A DNA stretch of 64,000 bases from Gilvimarinus sp. DA14. GTDB taxonomy: Bacteria > Pseudomonadota > Gammaproteobacteria > Pseudomonadales > Cellvibrionaceae. This document shows positions 49,569 through 60,105 of this stretch, one piece after another. The position numbers and the translations under genes are program-made. The DNA lies in the NCBI RefSeq assembly GCF_024204685.1, contig NZ_CP100350.1, positions 496,001 through 560,000 of the forward strand, written 5' to 3'. The notes below the pieces were generated by a model that saw only the letters and a list, made by a program, of their open reading frames with translations, did not search any database and was not told the DNA's origin. The first letter of the stretch is position 1. Each line of letters begins with the position of its first letter.

Positions 49569-50369
49569 GGCGGATGTCCTTGTTGGCCGTTGGTTAGAGC
49601 AACTATATACCTTGTAGATATAGATGCCAAATAGCATGGGTTTATATGTGCAGATTAACCGCTCGGCGGCCTTTGAGCTTGGCGGAATTCCACCGGCTTT
49701 GTTTAGAGGGTGATGGCTTAACAGCTTGAGCAATCATTTCTGCCAGATGAACTGTTTAGAGTGGATCCTTAAGGCATACCTTTATTGAGCTAAGAAAGCT
49801 GGCACTTACCACGACATAGGCTCCGATATTTGCTTTTTCTGCACCAGCTTCTAGGGCATTTACCTATGGACCCAAAGCGCATTATTTTATTAAAAAATTA
49901 GATTCGTCCTGTAAGTTTTTACAGATAAATATTTGTGATCGTTAAAGTGATTATTATCAGTTTCGGTAACGTCGAAGGGCGCGTTACTTAGAGAATGAAT
50001 TTAAATATCTATCTCACGTAAGGTGACAGAGATAAAAGTATTTTTCTTTGCAGCAGAGAATTGTTGCATTTTGTTATTAATCATAAGTCCGTTCATTTCT
50101 TTAAGTGTTTAGCCCTTTTTCTGCTGTTATTTTTTGTGATGACATTCTCGATAATGATTGCGAAAAAATCCCGCCGTCAAAGCTTAGGTCGATATACTCA
50201 ATCTGCCGCTTATGGTTATTATCTCTTCTGAGAAAATTACAATAATTGCAAACGCCTCAGCTCAGAAACACCTCGGAGGATGCCATGCGTGCAGTGTTTA
50301 ACCCTCAAGTAAATAGATTCTTGAGTTCTGGTGAAAGTCACAAATAATCGCAATAAGGAGACACGCCAA
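49569..50369. other. Long intergenic region between the HD-GYP sensor and cellulase genes
   Basis: About 800 bases, AT-rich at 49880-50150. The left part must carry the minus-strand promoter of the sensor gene. The right part is the leader of the cellulase and contains a short upstream ORF with a good RBS (50285-50347). No other gene-like frame was seen. Confidence 0.45.
50285..50347 (+). CDS. Possible 20-aa leader ORF upstream of the cellulase
   Basis: ATG 50285 is preceded by CTCGGAGGATGCC, a better Shine-Dalgarno than many real genes here. It encodes MRAVFNPQVNRFLSSGESHK and stops 22 bases before the cellulase ATG. It could couple or attenuate cellulase translation. No homologue is known to me. 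Confidence 0.35.
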   Translation: MRAVFNPQVNRFLSSGESHK

Positions 50370-51890
50370 ATGATGTTTTCAACAATGAAAAAGCTCAGCA
50401 CAGTGGCGGTGTTGGGCGCGAGCCTGAGTTATATGCCCTTATCTAATGCCCAGTCGGCCGATTGTAGCTATACAGTCGTTAATGATTGGGGCGCCGGTGC
50501 AATCGCAAATATTGAAATTACCAATACCGGCCCAACGCCCATTAACGGCTGGCACGTAAACTGGGAGTATCAATCAAACACCGTTAGCAATTTGTGGAAT
50601 GCTAACCTGAGTGGTTCTAACCCCTACTCCGCTTCCAATATGAGTTGGAACAGCGGTATTCAGCCTGGTCAAACCGTAAGTTTTGGTATGCAGGTCAATG
50701 CCCCTAACGGGGTCGAGACGGTTGAGGTTACCGGCGATATCTGCGGCACCGCAAGCTCATCTTCTAGCAGCAGCTCTTCGTCAAGTTCCAGCAGCTCCTC
50801 TTCCAGTTCCAGCAGTTCGTCGTCAAGCTCCAGTAGCTCGTCGTCCGGCGGTGAAGGATTAACCGCGGTAGAGTTGACCGGTGAGATGGGCGTGGGCTGG
50901 AACCTGGGTAATACCCTGGATGCCATTGGCGGTGAGACTGCCTGGGGTAACCCAGAAACGACTCAAGCGCTGATTAATTCAGTGGCGGATGCAGGCTTTA
51001 AAACCATTCGCGTGCCAGTGGCCTGGAGCAAGTTCTCGGACCCCGAGAATTTTGTGATCGAGCAAAGCTGGATGAACCGCGTAGAAGAGGTGGTTAACTA
51101 CGCCTTGAACGCGGATATGTATGTGATTATGAACATTCACTGGGACGAAGGTTGGATGCAACCCACCTATGCCGAGCAGGAGTACGTGAATAATCGCCTG
51201 GCTATCATGTGGGAGCAAATTGCCACACACTTTGAGGCCTACGATGATCGCCTGCTGTTTGCCGGTACCAATGAAGTCATGGTTGAAGGCGACTATGGCA
51301 CGCCGACCGAAGAGTATTACACCGTGCAAAACAGCTTTAACCAGACGTTTGTGGATACGGTGCGGGCTACCGGTGGCAATAACGCCGATCGCTATATCGT
51401 GGTACAGGGTTTTAACACCAATATTGATCACACGGTCAACTTTGCCGAGATTCCCAACGACCCTGCTAGCGACCGTTTGTTGATGGAGGTGCACTACTAT
51501 GACCCCTACAACTTTACCCTTAACCAAAGCAGTAATATTACCCAGTGGGGCTCAATTGCCACTGACCCAAGCGTGACCGAGACCTGGGCCAACGAATCTT
51601 ATGTGGATTATCAGTTCAGCCGCATGCAGACAAATTTCGTTAATCAGGGTATTGGCGTAATTTTGGGTGAGTACGGGGTAATCTCCCGCCAGAACGTGTC
51701 GGATCACGAGATTTACCGGAACTACTGGAACGAGTACATCACTCAATCGGCGGTTGACCACCAGTTGGTGCCTGTGTATTGGGATAACGGCTACGCCGGA
51801 AACGGCGGCTTTGCGTTGTTTGACCGCTACAGCGGCGCCGAGATTGAGCCAGAGTTGATCGACGCCATTACCAGCGCGGTCGCTGAATAA
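50370..51890 (+). CDS. Secreted GH5 endoglucanase with CBM2
   Basis: 506 aa from ATG 50370 (AAGGAG RBS). Signal peptide to about residue 28 (ending PLSNAQS). An N-terminal CBM2 cellulose-binding module (about 30-125) has Cys at both ends and surface-type Trp (NDWGAG, NGWHVNWEY, NLWNANLSG). A serine-only linker of about 33 residues (135-170) follows, then the GH5 catalytic barrel: GVGWNLGNTLDA, RVPVAWSKF, IHWDEGWM, acid/base FAGTNEV and nucleophile LGEYG. The usual N-E-P around the acid/base Glu is N-E-V here. It cleaves internal beta-1,4-glucan bonds. CBM2-polySer-GH architecture is a hallmark of Cellvibrionaceae. Confidence 0.94.
   Translation: MMFSTMKKLSTVAVLGASLSYMPLSNAQSADCSYTVVNDWGAGAIANIEITNTGPTPINGWHVNWEYQSNTVSNLWNANLSGSNPYSASNMSWNSGIQPGQTVSFGMQVNAPNGVETVEVTGDICGTASSSSSSSSSSSSSSSSSSSSSSSSSSSSSSSGGEGLTAVELTGEMGVGWNLGNTLDAIGGETAWGNPETTQALINSVADAGFKTIRVPVAWSKFSDPENFVIEQSWMNRVEEVVNYALNADMYVIMNIHWDEGWMQPTYAEQEYVNNRLAIMWEQIATHFEAYDDRLLFAGTNEVMVEGDYGTPTEEYYTVQNSFNQTFVDTVRATGGNNADRYIVVQGFNTNIDHTVNFAEIPNDPASDRLLMEVHYYDPYNFTLNQSSNITQWGSIATDPSVTETWANESYVDYQFSRMQTNFVNQGIGVILGEYGVISRQNVSDHEIYRNYWNEYITQSAVDHQLVPVYWDNGYAGNGGFALFDRYSGAEIEPELIDAITSAVAE
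50749..50847 (+). repeat. Poly-serine linker coding tract
   Basis: About 33 consecutive serine codons (AGC, TCT, TCA, TCG, TCC, AGT mixed) join the CBM2 and GH5 domains. Codon mixing keeps the DNA from being a simple tandem repeat, which limits slippage. Confidence 0.9.
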
Positions 51891-56547: not shown

Positions 56548-57537
56548 TTAGGGAGCCAGTGATTGTTCCGAGTGAGACGCCGTGTTTTTATCCAAAGCCA
56601 GTAGAGGCGCCAGGGCTGTTTCAGACACTTGAAGCACCGTACCGTGGCGGCTGCCCTCGGGCATTTTAATCTGGTCGCTCACATCTTCCCAATGAATAAA
56701 GTCCTGGGTTTTCATCGCGCCAAAGGCTTTGCTGGTGTACTCGTCGTAATAGACCAACCAGCTATCGGGCAGGCGCAGTATTGTTGGGCCCTCTACCCAT
56801 AAGTCTGTGGGAGTAAAGGGTTCAAGCGGTGTCTGCCAAGGGCCGTATAAGCTGTTGCTGCGAGTGACTTGTAAGTACTTGGCCGGCGGGTGGCGGGTTT
56901 CGTCTTTTAACACCATCACATACTCATCACCGTCTTTTACGATGGTTGAGTCAATCACGTTAAAGTCCGGCTGGTAAAACAGCTGGGTCTCGCTGTAGTG
57001 TTTAAAGTCTTTGGTGGCGGTGTAATAAATGCGGTGGTTAAGTCCATCGTCGCCCGTATCTTCGGTAGCGGGAAAGCGGCCGGGTATGGTGCTGGCCCAG
57101 TAAATCAAATACTGCTCGCGTTCATCATCCCATATGATTTCCGGTGCCCAGCTATTGCGGGCAGTGGGTTCGTGGGCCATGACGGCAATAAACTCGGGTT
57201 CGCTCCAATCAATCAGGTTATCCGAATGAGCGATGCCAATGCCCTTATCCCACCAGCCGGTGGTCCACACCATATGGTAGCGACCATCAGGGCCCTGAAT
57301 AATACAGGGGTCGCGCATCAGGCCCTGTCCTACGGTGGATTGCAAAACTGGTTGGTCGCCATTCAGCGCTTGCCAATGGTAGCCGTCGCGGCTGTATGCC
57401 AGATGTAAGCCGCTCTCGCCATTACCGCGAAAGGAGCTGAAAATATAGCCGGTTTTTGACTCTGGTTTACTGACGCAGGCGTTAAGTATTAGTGTTAAGG
57501 CAGCTATTGGGAGTGAGCGAGCGAGAATTTTGAGCAT
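56548..57537 (-). CDS. GH43-type glycoside hydrolase lipoprotein
   Basis: 329 aa, single-domain. Signal peptide with lipobox ILNAC at about residue 21, so it is anchored to a membrane. Five-bladed propeller features: LMRDPCIIQGPDGRYHMVWTT (base Asp), NVIDSTIVKDGDEYVMVLKD (pKa-modulating Asp) and WVEGPTILRLPDSWLVYY (acid Glu). It fits an alpha-L-arabinofuranosidase or a GH43-like exo-enzyme from rhamnogalacturonan or ulvan loci. AGAGGTAA RBS before ATG 57537. Divergent from the GH105 gene across 137 bases, so probably co-regulated with it. Confidence 0.87.
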   Translation of the reverse strand: MLKILARSLPIAALTLILNACVSKPESKTGYIFSSFRGNGESGLHLAYSRDGYHWQALNGDQPVLQSTVGQGLMRDPCIIQGPDGRYHMVWTTGWWDKGIGIAHSDNLIDWSEPEFIAVMAHEPTARNSWAPEIIWDDEREQYLIYWASTIPGRFPATEDTGDDGLNHRIYYTATKDFKHYSETQLFYQPDFNVIDSTIVKDGDEYVMVLKDETRHPPAKYLQVTRSNSLYGPWQTPLEPFTPTDLWVEGPTILRLPDSWLVYYDEYTSKAFGAMKTQDFIHWEDVSDQIKMPEGSRHGTVLQVSETALAPLLALDKNTASHSEQSLAP

Positions 57538-57674
57538 GCTTTACCTCTGTTGTCGCAGCGAAATGCGTTATTATGTTTTTGGCCTATTGATAATATAATA
57601 CCAATATAATGATTGCCGTTCAGCCACGACATGGCCTCGATAATAATTAATTCGTCAATAATAAGGTTTGCACA
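57538..57674. promoter_or_regulatory. Divergent GH43/GH105 promoter region
   Basis: 137 AT-rich bases between two divergent carbohydrate genes. Direct-repeat-like AATATAAT copies (around 57592 and 57603) and TTATTATG are seen. A shared regulator is likely, but no clear dyad was recognised. Confidence 0.4.
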
Positions 57675-58871
57675 ATGCGACAAATACTATTCAGTGTTTT
57701 ATTTATAGGCTTAGTCGCCTGCTCGCCCACTGCGACAAAACAGACATCTCCCACGCCGACGGCCGATTCGGTAAAAGCACTGACCAAGAAAGTCGCCGAC
57801 TGGCAGATTGAAACCTTTTACCAACAAGGTGAATATCGCGCCCTGCCTAGGGTTCCGCCGGAGTGGATGAACAGCGAGCAGTACCATGACTTGGAGTGGC
57901 ATCACGGGGCTCTGTACGCGGGTATGAATCAGTGGCGTAAAGTCGCCGACAACCCCGAGAAATATACCAACTGGCTGATCGAGATTGGCGAGCGCAACGA
58001 TTGGGAGCTGCACCGTCGCCCCTACCATGCCGACGACCACACCGTGGGGCAGTTCTACCTGGCGCTGTATGAAGATTTTAACGATCCTAAGATGCTGGAG
58101 CCCACCCGGGAACAGTTTGATTGGATTTTAGAAAACCCCAAAACCGGTACTCTGGACTGGCTGGCAGAAGACACCCACGCCCACGACCGCTGGGGCTGGA
58201 GTGACGCACTGTTTATGGCGCCTCCGGTGTGGGCACGTCTGTCTAAAGTGACTGGCGACCCCAAGTATCTGGAGTTTATGGACCGGGAATATCACGCCAC
58301 CTACGATTTGCTGTGGAGTGAAAAAGATCACCTGTTCTGGCGCGACTCCAGCTTCTTTACCAAAAGCGAGAAAAACGGCGAAGATATTTTCTGGTCGCGC
58401 GGTAACGGTTGGGTATTTGGCGGTCTGGCATTAATGATTCCGGACCTGCCCGCTAACTGGGAAGGTCGTGACTTTTATATCGACTTATACAAAGAAATGG
58501 CGGCCCGCCTGTTAGAGATTCAGCGCGACGACGGCACCTGGTCTATGGGTTTGCTGGGCGGTATTGACGGTTACCCGATTATCGAAACCAGCGGCACCTC
58601 TTTCTTTACCTTTGGTCTGGCCTGGGGCATCAACCAGGGCATTCTCGATCACGAAACCTACCAACCAGCGGTTATGCGTGCCTGGCAGGCACTGTCCGGC
58701 GCCGTAACCGATGAAGGGCTGCTGGGGCATGTACAACCGGTAGGCGCCGCACCCGGCGACTCCTTCCCCGACTACACCGAGGTGTACGGTATTGGCGCCT
58801 TTCTGGCCGCAGGCAGCGAACTGTACAAGCTGCTGGCTGAAGAAGAAGGCGTAAAAAAAAAAGATAACTGA
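57675..58871 (+). CDS. GH105 unsaturated uronyl hydrolase lipoprotein
   Basis: 398 aa. Signal with lipobox LVACS at about residue 16. The alpha/alpha-six-barrel shows GH88/GH105 motifs: LEWHHGALYAGMN, RPYHADDHTVGQFY (Asp of the catalytic site), DRWGWSDALFMAPPVWARL (second Asp), ILFW-type FWSRGNGWVFGGLA and GTSFFTFGLAWGIN. YteR-like enzymes hydrolyse the unsaturated uronyl residue left by polysaccharide lyases on rhamnogalacturonan or ulvan. AAGG RBS. The C-terminus reads EEEGVKKKDN, and its Lys codons lie in an A10 tract that may permit a frameshift into the next gene. Confidence 0.93.
   Translation: MRQILFSVLFIGLVACSPTATKQTSPTPTADSVKALTKKVADWQIETFYQQGEYRALPRVPPEWMNSEQYHDLEWHHGALYAGMNQWRKVADNPEKYTNWLIEIGERNDWELHRRPYHADDHTVGQFYLALYEDFNDPKMLEPTREQFDWILENPKTGTLDWLAEDTHAHDRWGWSDALFMAPPVWARLSKVTGDPKYLEFMDREYHATYDLLWSEKDHLFWRDSSFFTKSEKNGEDIFWSRGNGWVFGGLALMIPDLPANWEGRDFYIDLYKEMAARLLEIQRDDGTWSMGLLGGIDGYPIIETSGTSFFTFGLAWGINQGILDHETYQPAVMRAWQALSGAVTDEGLLGHVQPVGAAPGDSFPDYTEVYGIGAFLAAGSELYKLLAEEEGVKKKDN
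58853..58862 (+). promoter_or_regulatory. A10 slippery tract at the GH105/BNR junction
   Basis: Ten consecutive A bases. In the BNR frame a TAA at 58852-58854 closes everything upstream, and the frame is open from 58855, inside the tract. Loss of one A, or a +1 slip, converts GH105 ...VKKKDN-stop into ...KKITDVRTFMYNSGWCW, continuing through the whole BNR protein. Confidence 0.7.
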
Positions 58872-58884
58872 TGTTCGCACCTTT

Positions 58885-60105
58885 ATGTACAACAGCGGGT
58901 GGTGCTGGTTTCAGGACCCCCGCGCCATCGTCCACAACGGCAAGTTGCTGGTGGGCGGTGTTGCCGGCAACGGTCGCGGTGACGCGGCCGTTGGCGTTTA
59001 CGATTTAGAGCGCGACGCTCTGCTGGGTCGCACCACCCTGCACGATCAATTTGATCATGACGACCACAACTCCCCCGTTTTCTACGCCCGCCCAGACGGC
59101 AGTGTGTTAAGCGTCTATGCGCGTCACAGCACTGAAAACATCCATTACTACCGCATATCCAACAGCGACGACTATTTAAGCTGGGGTGACGAAAAAACCA
59201 AAACCTACGACGACTCTGTCACCTATATGAACCTGTTTGCCCTTAACGATGGCAAGCTGTACAACTTCTATCGCGGCGTTGACTGGAACCCCACCATGGT
59301 TGTCTCCAGCGATCACGGCAAAACCTGGGGTGAAGAGACGCACTTTATTCAAAATGAAGTCGAAGGCCGTCACCGCCCTTACGCCCGCTACACCAGCAAT
59401 GGCACAGACACCATTGGTATCTCGTTTACCGATGCCCATCCGCGCGATTACGGCACCAGCATTTACTACGCCGAATTTCGCGATGGTAACTTCTACCAAG
59501 TAGACGGCACGTTTATCAAAAACCTGGCAAAAGATGGTCCCCTAAAACCCTCTGAGGCTGAAAAAATCTTTACCGGTGGTGGCGGCGGGTTTCGCAGCGT
59601 AGAGTTGAGCGCGCAAAACAGCGCCTGGACCAGCGCCGTAGAAATAGACAGCCAGGGTCACCCACACATCGCCTACTCTTTGTATCTGAGTAACGACGAC
59701 CAGCGCTATCGCATTGCGTCATGGAACGGCGAAAAGTGGATTGATCGCGAAGTAGCCCACGCCGGCAGTCGTTTGTACGAACGCGAAGCCAGCTATACCG
59801 GCTTAATCACTCTGGATCCAGCTGATCCTCAGCGCGTGGTTATCTCTACCGATGTCGACCCCACCAATGGTGAAGCTCTGGGTGGGAAACATCAGATTTT
59901 TACCGCGCAGGTAACATCGGCGGACGAAACTGCCTCCATCGATTGGCAGCGCTTGTCCTTTGATGACCACCGCCACAACATCCGCCCCATGGTGGTAAAC
60001 GACGGCGAGCACAAATTGGTGCTGTGGTCGCGAGGCCAGTACAACACCTACACGGATTATTATCTGGATACCGTGGGACTGGATTTAAAAGCAGCGATTC
60101 ACTGA
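58885..60105 (+). CDS. BNR_4-type beta-propeller protein, possible polysaccharide lyase or sialidase-fold enzyme
   Basis: 406 aa from the first ATG, but the frame is open back to 58855. The sequence starts inside a conserved BNR_4 opening (SGWCWFQDPRAIVHNGKLLVGG). Repeated Asp-box-like blades follow: HDDHNSPVFYARPDGSVLSVYARHS, SSDHGKTWGEE, RPYARYTSNGTDTIGISFTDAHP. His and Tyr residues in these blades resemble those in propeller-type ulvan lyases (PL24/PL25), but that is only suggestive. There is no signal peptide and no RBS before ATG 58885, odd for a polysaccharide enzyme. Either it is expressed by slippage as a fusion with the GH105 lipoprotein, or a one-base frameshift has split a single gene. 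Confidence 0.8.
   Translation: MYNSGWCWFQDPRAIVHNGKLLVGGVAGNGRGDAAVGVYDLERDALLGRTTLHDQFDHDDHNSPVFYARPDGSVLSVYARHSTENIHYYRISNSDDYLSWGDEKTKTYDDSVTYMNLFALNDGKLYNFYRGVDWNPTMVVSSDHGKTWGEETHFIQNEVEGRHRPYARYTSNGTDTIGISFTDAHPRDYGTSIYYAEFRDGNFYQVDGTFIKNLAKDGPLKPSEAEKIFTGGGGGFRSVELSAQNSAWTSAVEIDSQGHPHIAYSLYLSNDDQRYRIASWNGEKWIDREVAHAGSRLYEREASYTGLITLDPADPQRVVISTDVDPTNGEALGGKHQIFTAQVTSADETASIDWQRLSFDDHRHNIRPMVVNDGEHKLVLWSRGQYNTYTDYYLDTVGLDLKAAIH

Follow-up and report, generated by a model that had tools for sequence, protein, structure and literature searches.

A GH105-BNR propeller fusion gene of Gilvimarinus sp. DA14 broken at an A10 run in its linker, with possible rejoining of the halves by slippage

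Several bacterial genes are known in which the reading frame breaks, or divides into two forms, at a run of adenines. In Thermus thermophilus dnaX, transcriptional slippage has been described at a run of nine As (PMC1088944); for Citrobacter rodentium tssM1, with a run of 11, messages carrying 10 to 15 As and both protein products have been reported (PMC4256274); and in insect endosymbionts, where conserved genes are broken at poly(A) tracts in the DNA, between 12 and 50% of the transcripts are reported to be restored (PMC5009743). According to the Thermus report, a large share of 108 bacterial genomes show counterselection against A/T runs, which becomes evident at a length of nine (PMC1088944).

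Here we describe a gene of Gilvimarinus sp. DA14 (genome of 3,956,837 bases in one contig) that is broken at a run of 10 As. It lies in a stretch of 64,000 nucleotides that was analyzed as a whole and is called the window below. The gene order is a divergent GH43-like gene, the GH105 gene (57675-58871) and a BNR frame that ends at 60105, with the following features:

56548..57537, minus strand: GH43-like gene with a BT_3657-like N terminus, divergent from GH105
57675..58871, plus strand: GH105 (PF07470) lipoprotein frame, 398 aa, C-terminal ...EEEGVKKKDN followed by the stop
57675..57722, plus strand: lipoprotein-type signal MRQILFSVLFIGLVAC, judged by eye
58852..58854, plus strand: TAA closing the BNR frame on its 5' side and overlapping the first two As of the run
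58853..58862, plus strand: A10 run in the interdomain linker, exactly 10 A by direct reading
58863..58871, plus strand: GATAACTGA, directly 3' of the run, carrying TAA (58865-58867) and TGA (58869-58871)
58855..60105, plus strand: BNR_4 (PF15892) propeller frame, first ATG at 58885

The GH105 frame ends GTA AAA AAA AAA GAT AAC TGA, and the BNR frame lies one base off it. That the A10 run ends the one frame and that the other opens at the same run, as the original prediction had it, can be read directly from the letters. TAA and TGA shut both non-fusion frames right after the run, and GATAACTGA, which carries them, is identical in G. xylanilyticus and G. gilvus. The GH105 frame is intact, and its Pfam match (Glyco_hydro_88, the model covering GH105; 3.2e-73, 247.2 bits versus a cut-off of 26.6, above the curated score) reaches residue 386 of 398. 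The second frame matches BNR_4 (8.4e-29, 101.2 bits versus a cut-off of 27.3, also above the curated score). Against the NCBIfam profiles, GH105 gave a match far under the cut-off only, and the BNR half gave none. By eye, no signal is seen in the BNR half and no AGGAG-like site precedes 58885, which bears out what had been predicted. A promoter and terminator scan of the DA14 window returned no more than shuffled sequences give. Elsewhere in the window (50331-51890), an ORF named by eye as cellulase-like carries a long poly-serine linker.

Homologs of the BNR half were sought in a single scan across genome contigs (6 loci), in 144 genomes of DA14's family (11 matched), in 390 genomes of the order (2 matched, DA14 and one family member already found) and in a flavobacterial family represented by 397 genomes (9 matched), which together gave 23 distinct BNR loci. 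At 18 of these, GH105 directly precedes a close BNR homolog, and the junctions were read: DA14, G. xylanilyticus, G. gilvus, G. algae, four other family members and ten flavobacterial loci. Sixteen of the 18 are in-frame fusions through the junction; the exceptions are DA14 and G. gilvus. The predicted lipoprotein-GH105-BNR fusion gene, interrupted at the A run, is thus upheld by natural fusions, and the run itself is kept in G. xylanilyticus and G. gilvus. The former, whose BNR half is 95% identical to that of DA14, has nine As at the same place and is in frame, a natural example of the prediction that one A fewer yields a continuous frame. The linker varies in sequence and length in the fusion alignment, and the signal Cys is invariant across nine aligned fusions. 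To judge by these loci, GH105-BNR is one gene in the relatives, newly recognized here, and we regard the fusion architecture as close to certain. In a literature search covering titles and abstract openings, with most subscription papers outside it, we recognized no GH105-BNR or GH105-lyase fusion and no slippage-joined or phase-variable carbohydrate enzyme.

The remaining five loci comprise one more distant in-frame fusion (L020, BNR half about 33 to 36% identical) and four free-standing BNR genes (L007, L017, L018, and L019), each with an N-terminal signal-like segment by eye. Separate BNR genes with signals of their own, which the original prediction had named as evidence against a functional fusion, do therefore exist at four loci, but they are confined to distant relatives. 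In one genome (G005), the free-standing gene L017, with a lipoprotein-type signal, stands beside the different, more distant fusion L020. In the draft assembly of another family member (G100, L016/L021), the junction is in frame and the BNR half has a frameshift near residue 290, away from any homopolymer.

The surroundings of the gene differ between species. A homolog of the GH43-like gene also adjoins the fusion in G. xylanilyticus, and in G. gilvus (L004, 47-3321) two divergent genes, sulfatase-like by eye, stand ahead of the split gene in place of GH43. At the DNA level, window positions 56635-60087 (approximate bounds, covering GH43 and GH105-BNR) are 88% identical to G. xylanilyticus, against 65 to 80% for most neighboring blocks; other blocks nearby reach 92% and 89.6%. 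By this pattern, the GH43 and GH105-BNR module looks like one that has been exchanged between species.

All 18 loci have an ATG at the position of the apparent BNR start of DA14, and at 16 of them this ATG lies within a continuous fusion frame. For this reason we read the ATG at 58885 as an internal residue inherited from the fusions and rejected it as a true gene start, so that on this point the predicted BNR gene start does not stand. The same observation weighs on the idea of two separate genes, with the BNR half translated by reinitiation at 58885 after the GH105 stop at 58869-58871. The gap from stop to ATG (13 nt in DA14 and 17 nt in G. gilvus) would allow this, but no ribosome site is seen by eye, and the product would lack a signal and be cytosolic, whereas all four free-standing homologs carry a signal-like segment. 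We consider reinitiation very improbable.

The long run is a feature of Gilvimarinus. In the last 75 nt before the conserved Met, the longest A run is 10 in DA14, 9 in both G. xylanilyticus and G. gilvus, and 2 to 7 at the other 15 loci, and many of these 15 run-free linkers are richer in A+T. Runs of 9 to 10 As in the linker thus occur at 3 of 18 loci, all of them Gilvimarinus. At this one run each of the three related species has a frame state of its own: the halves are in frame in G. xylanilyticus, out by one base in DA14 and out in the other direction in G. gilvus. The two splits run in opposite directions (frame offsets of 1 and 2); in G. gilvus the run is A9, and the run plus the bases just before it is two bases shorter than in DA14. 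Two of the three run-bearing loci are out of frame, versus none of the 15 without the run (Fisher value by hand, 3/153 = 0.02, for loci that are not independent). Because only three related genomes are involved and the locus has apparently been exchanged, two splits in three make weak statistics and rough branch rates. Between DA14 and G. gilvus, nine As plus GATAACTGATGT form an exact match of 21 nt, the second longest over 2.4 kb with an identity of 74.8%. If counting starts eight codons ahead of the Met, stops shut both non-fusion frames within the first two codons at all three run-bearing loci and at none of the other 15; at two of these 15 they do so within four codons.

In the 64-kb window taken alone, an A10 is unremarkable (mean of 0.57 in 100 shuffles, 29 of which had at least one). 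In the whole 3.96-Mb DA14 genome it is the only A10 or T10, and because it also sits on a junction that is open in relatives, we take it to be more than chance. DA14 and G. xylanilyticus each have 5 places with nine or more As, and G. gilvus has 15. The surroundings of the 22 further A/T9 runs in these three genomes were scanned, with translation of eight of them, and no second split gene was seen: the runs are in frame where they lie inside convincing genes, several stand at terminator-like hairpins, and a few fall in short or unclear ORFs. A long A run does not by itself point to use, since both G. xylanilyticus and G. gilvus have further A/T9 runs within coding sequence that leave the frame intact. 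In G. xylanilyticus, a 298-aa ORF some 0.5 kb downstream of the fusion (L003, 6749-7645) contains a second coding A9, which is in frame.

Homopolymers are classic places for one-base errors, and a true run of some other length would make the DA14 gene a plain fusion; the genome has no second run of 10 or more against which the assembly could be calibrated. We compared 400 kb of DA14 with 400 kb of G. xylanilyticus, an Illumina draft (PMC9638140), using ORFs of at least 100 aa with spurious ones included. Of 619 DA14 ORFs, 375 had a match at 55% identity or more, and four of these were frameshift-like pairs: the GH105-BNR gene, an antisense ORF over the A10 and two small ORFs (110 and 147 aa). 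In the reverse comparison, none of 394 matched ORFs was frameshift-like. With so few frameshift-like places, the DA14 assembly appears sound in general, and we rejected a general problem of assembly quality. The G. gilvus split, read from another assembly, is independent of DA14's and would be left unexplained by an error there. We hold an assembly or base-calling error to be an improbable account of the DA14 split.

Both halves are under purifying selection, as judged from codon comparisons. For the BNR half, dN/dS between DA14 and G. xylanilyticus is 0.081 and between DA14 and G. gilvus 0.068; the GH105 half gives 0.098 and 0.061, the G. gilvus values coming from synonymous sites near saturation. 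In the BNR half, DA14 and G. xylanilyticus have 5 and 8 unique amino-acid changes and 25 and 24 unique synonymous codons, respectively; the GH105 half has 8 such changes in each, with 20 and 38 synonymous codons. Between G. gilvus and G. algae, unique changes number 12 versus 16 in BNR and 15 versus 10 in GH105. No acceleration or relaxation of the BNR half is seen in either split lineage, and by a crude Poisson bound the time spent free of selection is at most about 5% of the DA14 branch and about 2 to 9%, depending on the baseline, of the G. gilvus branch. The BNR frames run without a second break for 406 aa in DA14 and 405 aa in G. gilvus. The absence of relaxation in the BNR half leaves two possibilities: both splits arose very recently, or the protein product still unites the two halves.

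The first of these possibilities is a recent ordinary frameshift by replication slippage, after which only GH105 would be made and the BNR half would be a very young pseudogene, in DA14 and separately in G. gilvus. A runs this long are mutation hotspots, a split that leaves GH105 complete may cost little, and the slip that DA14 would need for rejoining goes in an unfavorable direction. A run of at least nine A/T at the frame junction, which counts toward programmed slippage, is present at 58853-58862. In the GeneTack rules, however, a programmed cluster needs five or more split genes and two genera or fewer mark pseudogene clusters (PMC3711429); here 2 of 18 loci are split, within one genus, which favors a pseudogene. 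The same rules expect no conserved pseudogene site (PMC3711429), whereas both splits fall at the same run. Nor does the BNR half of either species show the second break or relaxation that decay would bring, and to catch two of three species in a brief doomed state would be unlikely. We regard a recent frameshift as the weightiest of the alternatives, though an unlikely one.

Phase variation would also account for three frame states at one run in three related genomes. The run would grow and shrink reversibly at replication, and cells would differ in making the fused protein or GH105 only. Both halves have been kept intact, and the GH105-BNR lipoprotein is likely an outer-membrane protein exposed at the surface, which would suit such switching. 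A9 to A10 is short for a contingency run, however, and the scan of the 22 other A/T9 runs in the three genomes revealed no second split gene. With one genome per species, slow switching is indistinguishable from occasional mutation. We hold phase variation to be rather improbable.

What slippage would have to achieve differs between the species. Fusion requires one A fewer, two more or a +1 ribosomal shift in DA14 and one A more or a -1 shift in G. gilvus; G. xylanilyticus needs none. A -1 ribosomal shift at the DA14 run reads AGA TAA and stops without reaching the BNR frame, and -1 frameshifting was rejected for DA14 on that ground; in G. gilvus, such a shift would reach it. The fold of the 80 nt downstream is unexceptional (z of -0.98, with 37 of 200 shuffles as good), and inspection of the upstream sequence by eye showed no Shine-Dalgarno-like element that all three run-bearing loci share. 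In lacZ reporters with 7 to 11 As, insertions are reported to be at least twice as efficient as deletions, and the E. coli polymerase to slip less on A than on T runs (PMC6260861). Deletions at E. coli homopolymers are described as rare and insertions as mostly of single bases, and no Buchnera frame was restored by slippage in that study (PMC5574713). For sliding of the E. coli ribosome in vitro, the reported minimum is 11 As (PMC4363877). Since insertions outdo deletions and deletions are rare in E. coli, the change required in DA14 (-1 or +2 A) is the hard one, and we would expect a minor amount of fusion in DA14 and more in G. gilvus.

For the GH105 half, the best PDB match is 4ce7, an unsaturated 3S-rhamnoglycuronyl hydrolase (E of 3.1e-71), and by this resemblance it is predicted to hydrolyze unsaturated uronates. 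Sequence searches of the PDB with the BNR half gave no match by single query and an unrelated one at E of 0.63 by profile. A model of this half (pLDDT of 83.6) matched structures of the GH145/PL25/PL42 fold in Foldseek (E of 6.7e-16 to 2.4e-12). In VIA-align, the first ten entries had Z of 29 to 34 over 351 to 369 residues and the next stood at 25.7 and below; Z was 31.3 for BT3686, 32.5 for PL25 ulvan lyase, 31.3 for FoRham1 and about 25 for unrelated propellers. As modeled, then, the BNR half adopts the propeller fold shared by GH145, PL25 and PL42. BT3686 is described as a GH145 enzyme, and FoRham1 as an L-rhamnose-glucuronate lyase and BNR_4 protein (PMC8377490), the family of FoRham1 being 42 according to a title (PMC10951650). 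A lyase or rhamnosidase acting at Rha-GlcA would make a sensible predicted pair with a remover of unsaturated uronates, and the two-part enzyme probably digests algal or plant sugars. In a model of the G. xylanilyticus fusion (mean pLDDT of 74.1, pTM of 0.57), residues 393 to 396 (VKKK), encoded by the run, form a low-confidence coil between the domains.

The reading that we favor, with a probability of about 0.43, is that of a natural fusion gene with a slippery linker and a floating DNA frame, from which DA14 makes mainly GH105 alone and, by slippage, some full-length protein. The gene would be a single one for a lipoprotein with an N-terminal GH105 domain of unsaturated glucuronyl hydrolase type and a C-terminal BNR_4 propeller, joined by a short, nonconserved linker that in some Gilvimarinus carries 9 to 10 As (Lys-Lys-Lys). 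The DNA frame would float because the run changes length by replication slippage. In DA14, most ribosomes would end an intact GH105 at the TGA at 58869-58871, and the propeller would arise solely as part of full-length lipoprotein, through slippage at the run in a minority of messages (or ribosomes). The mixture of GH105-only and full-length protein would be tolerated or useful, and we infer a pairing in which a Rha-GlcA lyase or rhamnosidase acts first and the unsaturated uronate is then removed. A stronger version, in which a lasting slippery hinge uses polymerase slippage to keep a set mixture of both lipoproteins whatever the DNA frame, which itself drifts between species, strikes us as doubtful.

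If the hinge is real, slippage would determine which domains a carbohydrate-degrading enzyme contains, and would do so in a bacterium whose base composition is balanced. Should the full-length protein be made, a one-base difference annotated as a pseudogene or as two genes would be a working two-domain enzyme, and G. xylanilyticus, DA14 and G. gilvus would form a natural series for the level of slippage that keeps a domain selected. Should it not be made, the locus would be a clean early case of one-base domain loss from a fused enzyme, in two species.

Set against enzymes of known structure, the modeled BNR fold matches the BNR_4-type propellers BT3686 (GH145), PL25 and FoRham1; it differs from them in being only 15 to 18% identical in the alignments and in being fused here to GH105, with an activity that is predicted. 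As a frame break, the DA14 gene resembles Thermus dnaX in having its run late in the coding region (A9 in dnaX), a close stop in the other frames and two possible C-terminal forms, but the fused frame of dnaX is the DNA frame and its short form makes up about half, whereas in DA14 it is the DNA frame that is off (PMC1088944). With tssM1 (A11) it shares a break soon after the A run, a C-terminal domain kept downstream in another frame and two length variants; for tssM1, unlike DA14, altered messages and both proteins have been reported, while the DA14 A10 would need -1 or +2 (PMC4256274). Like the endosymbiont poly(A) genes, it is a conserved gene with its DNA frame broken at poly(A); those lie in AT-rich, reduced genomes, unlike the single A10 of DA14 at 53% GC in the 400-kb sample (PMC5009743). 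A slippery hinge is suggested here because the gene is intact in relatives or else interrupted at this very run in the opposite direction. Together, these comparisons suggest that the DA14 locus joins the known genes with frame breaks at A runs, in an unusual setting.
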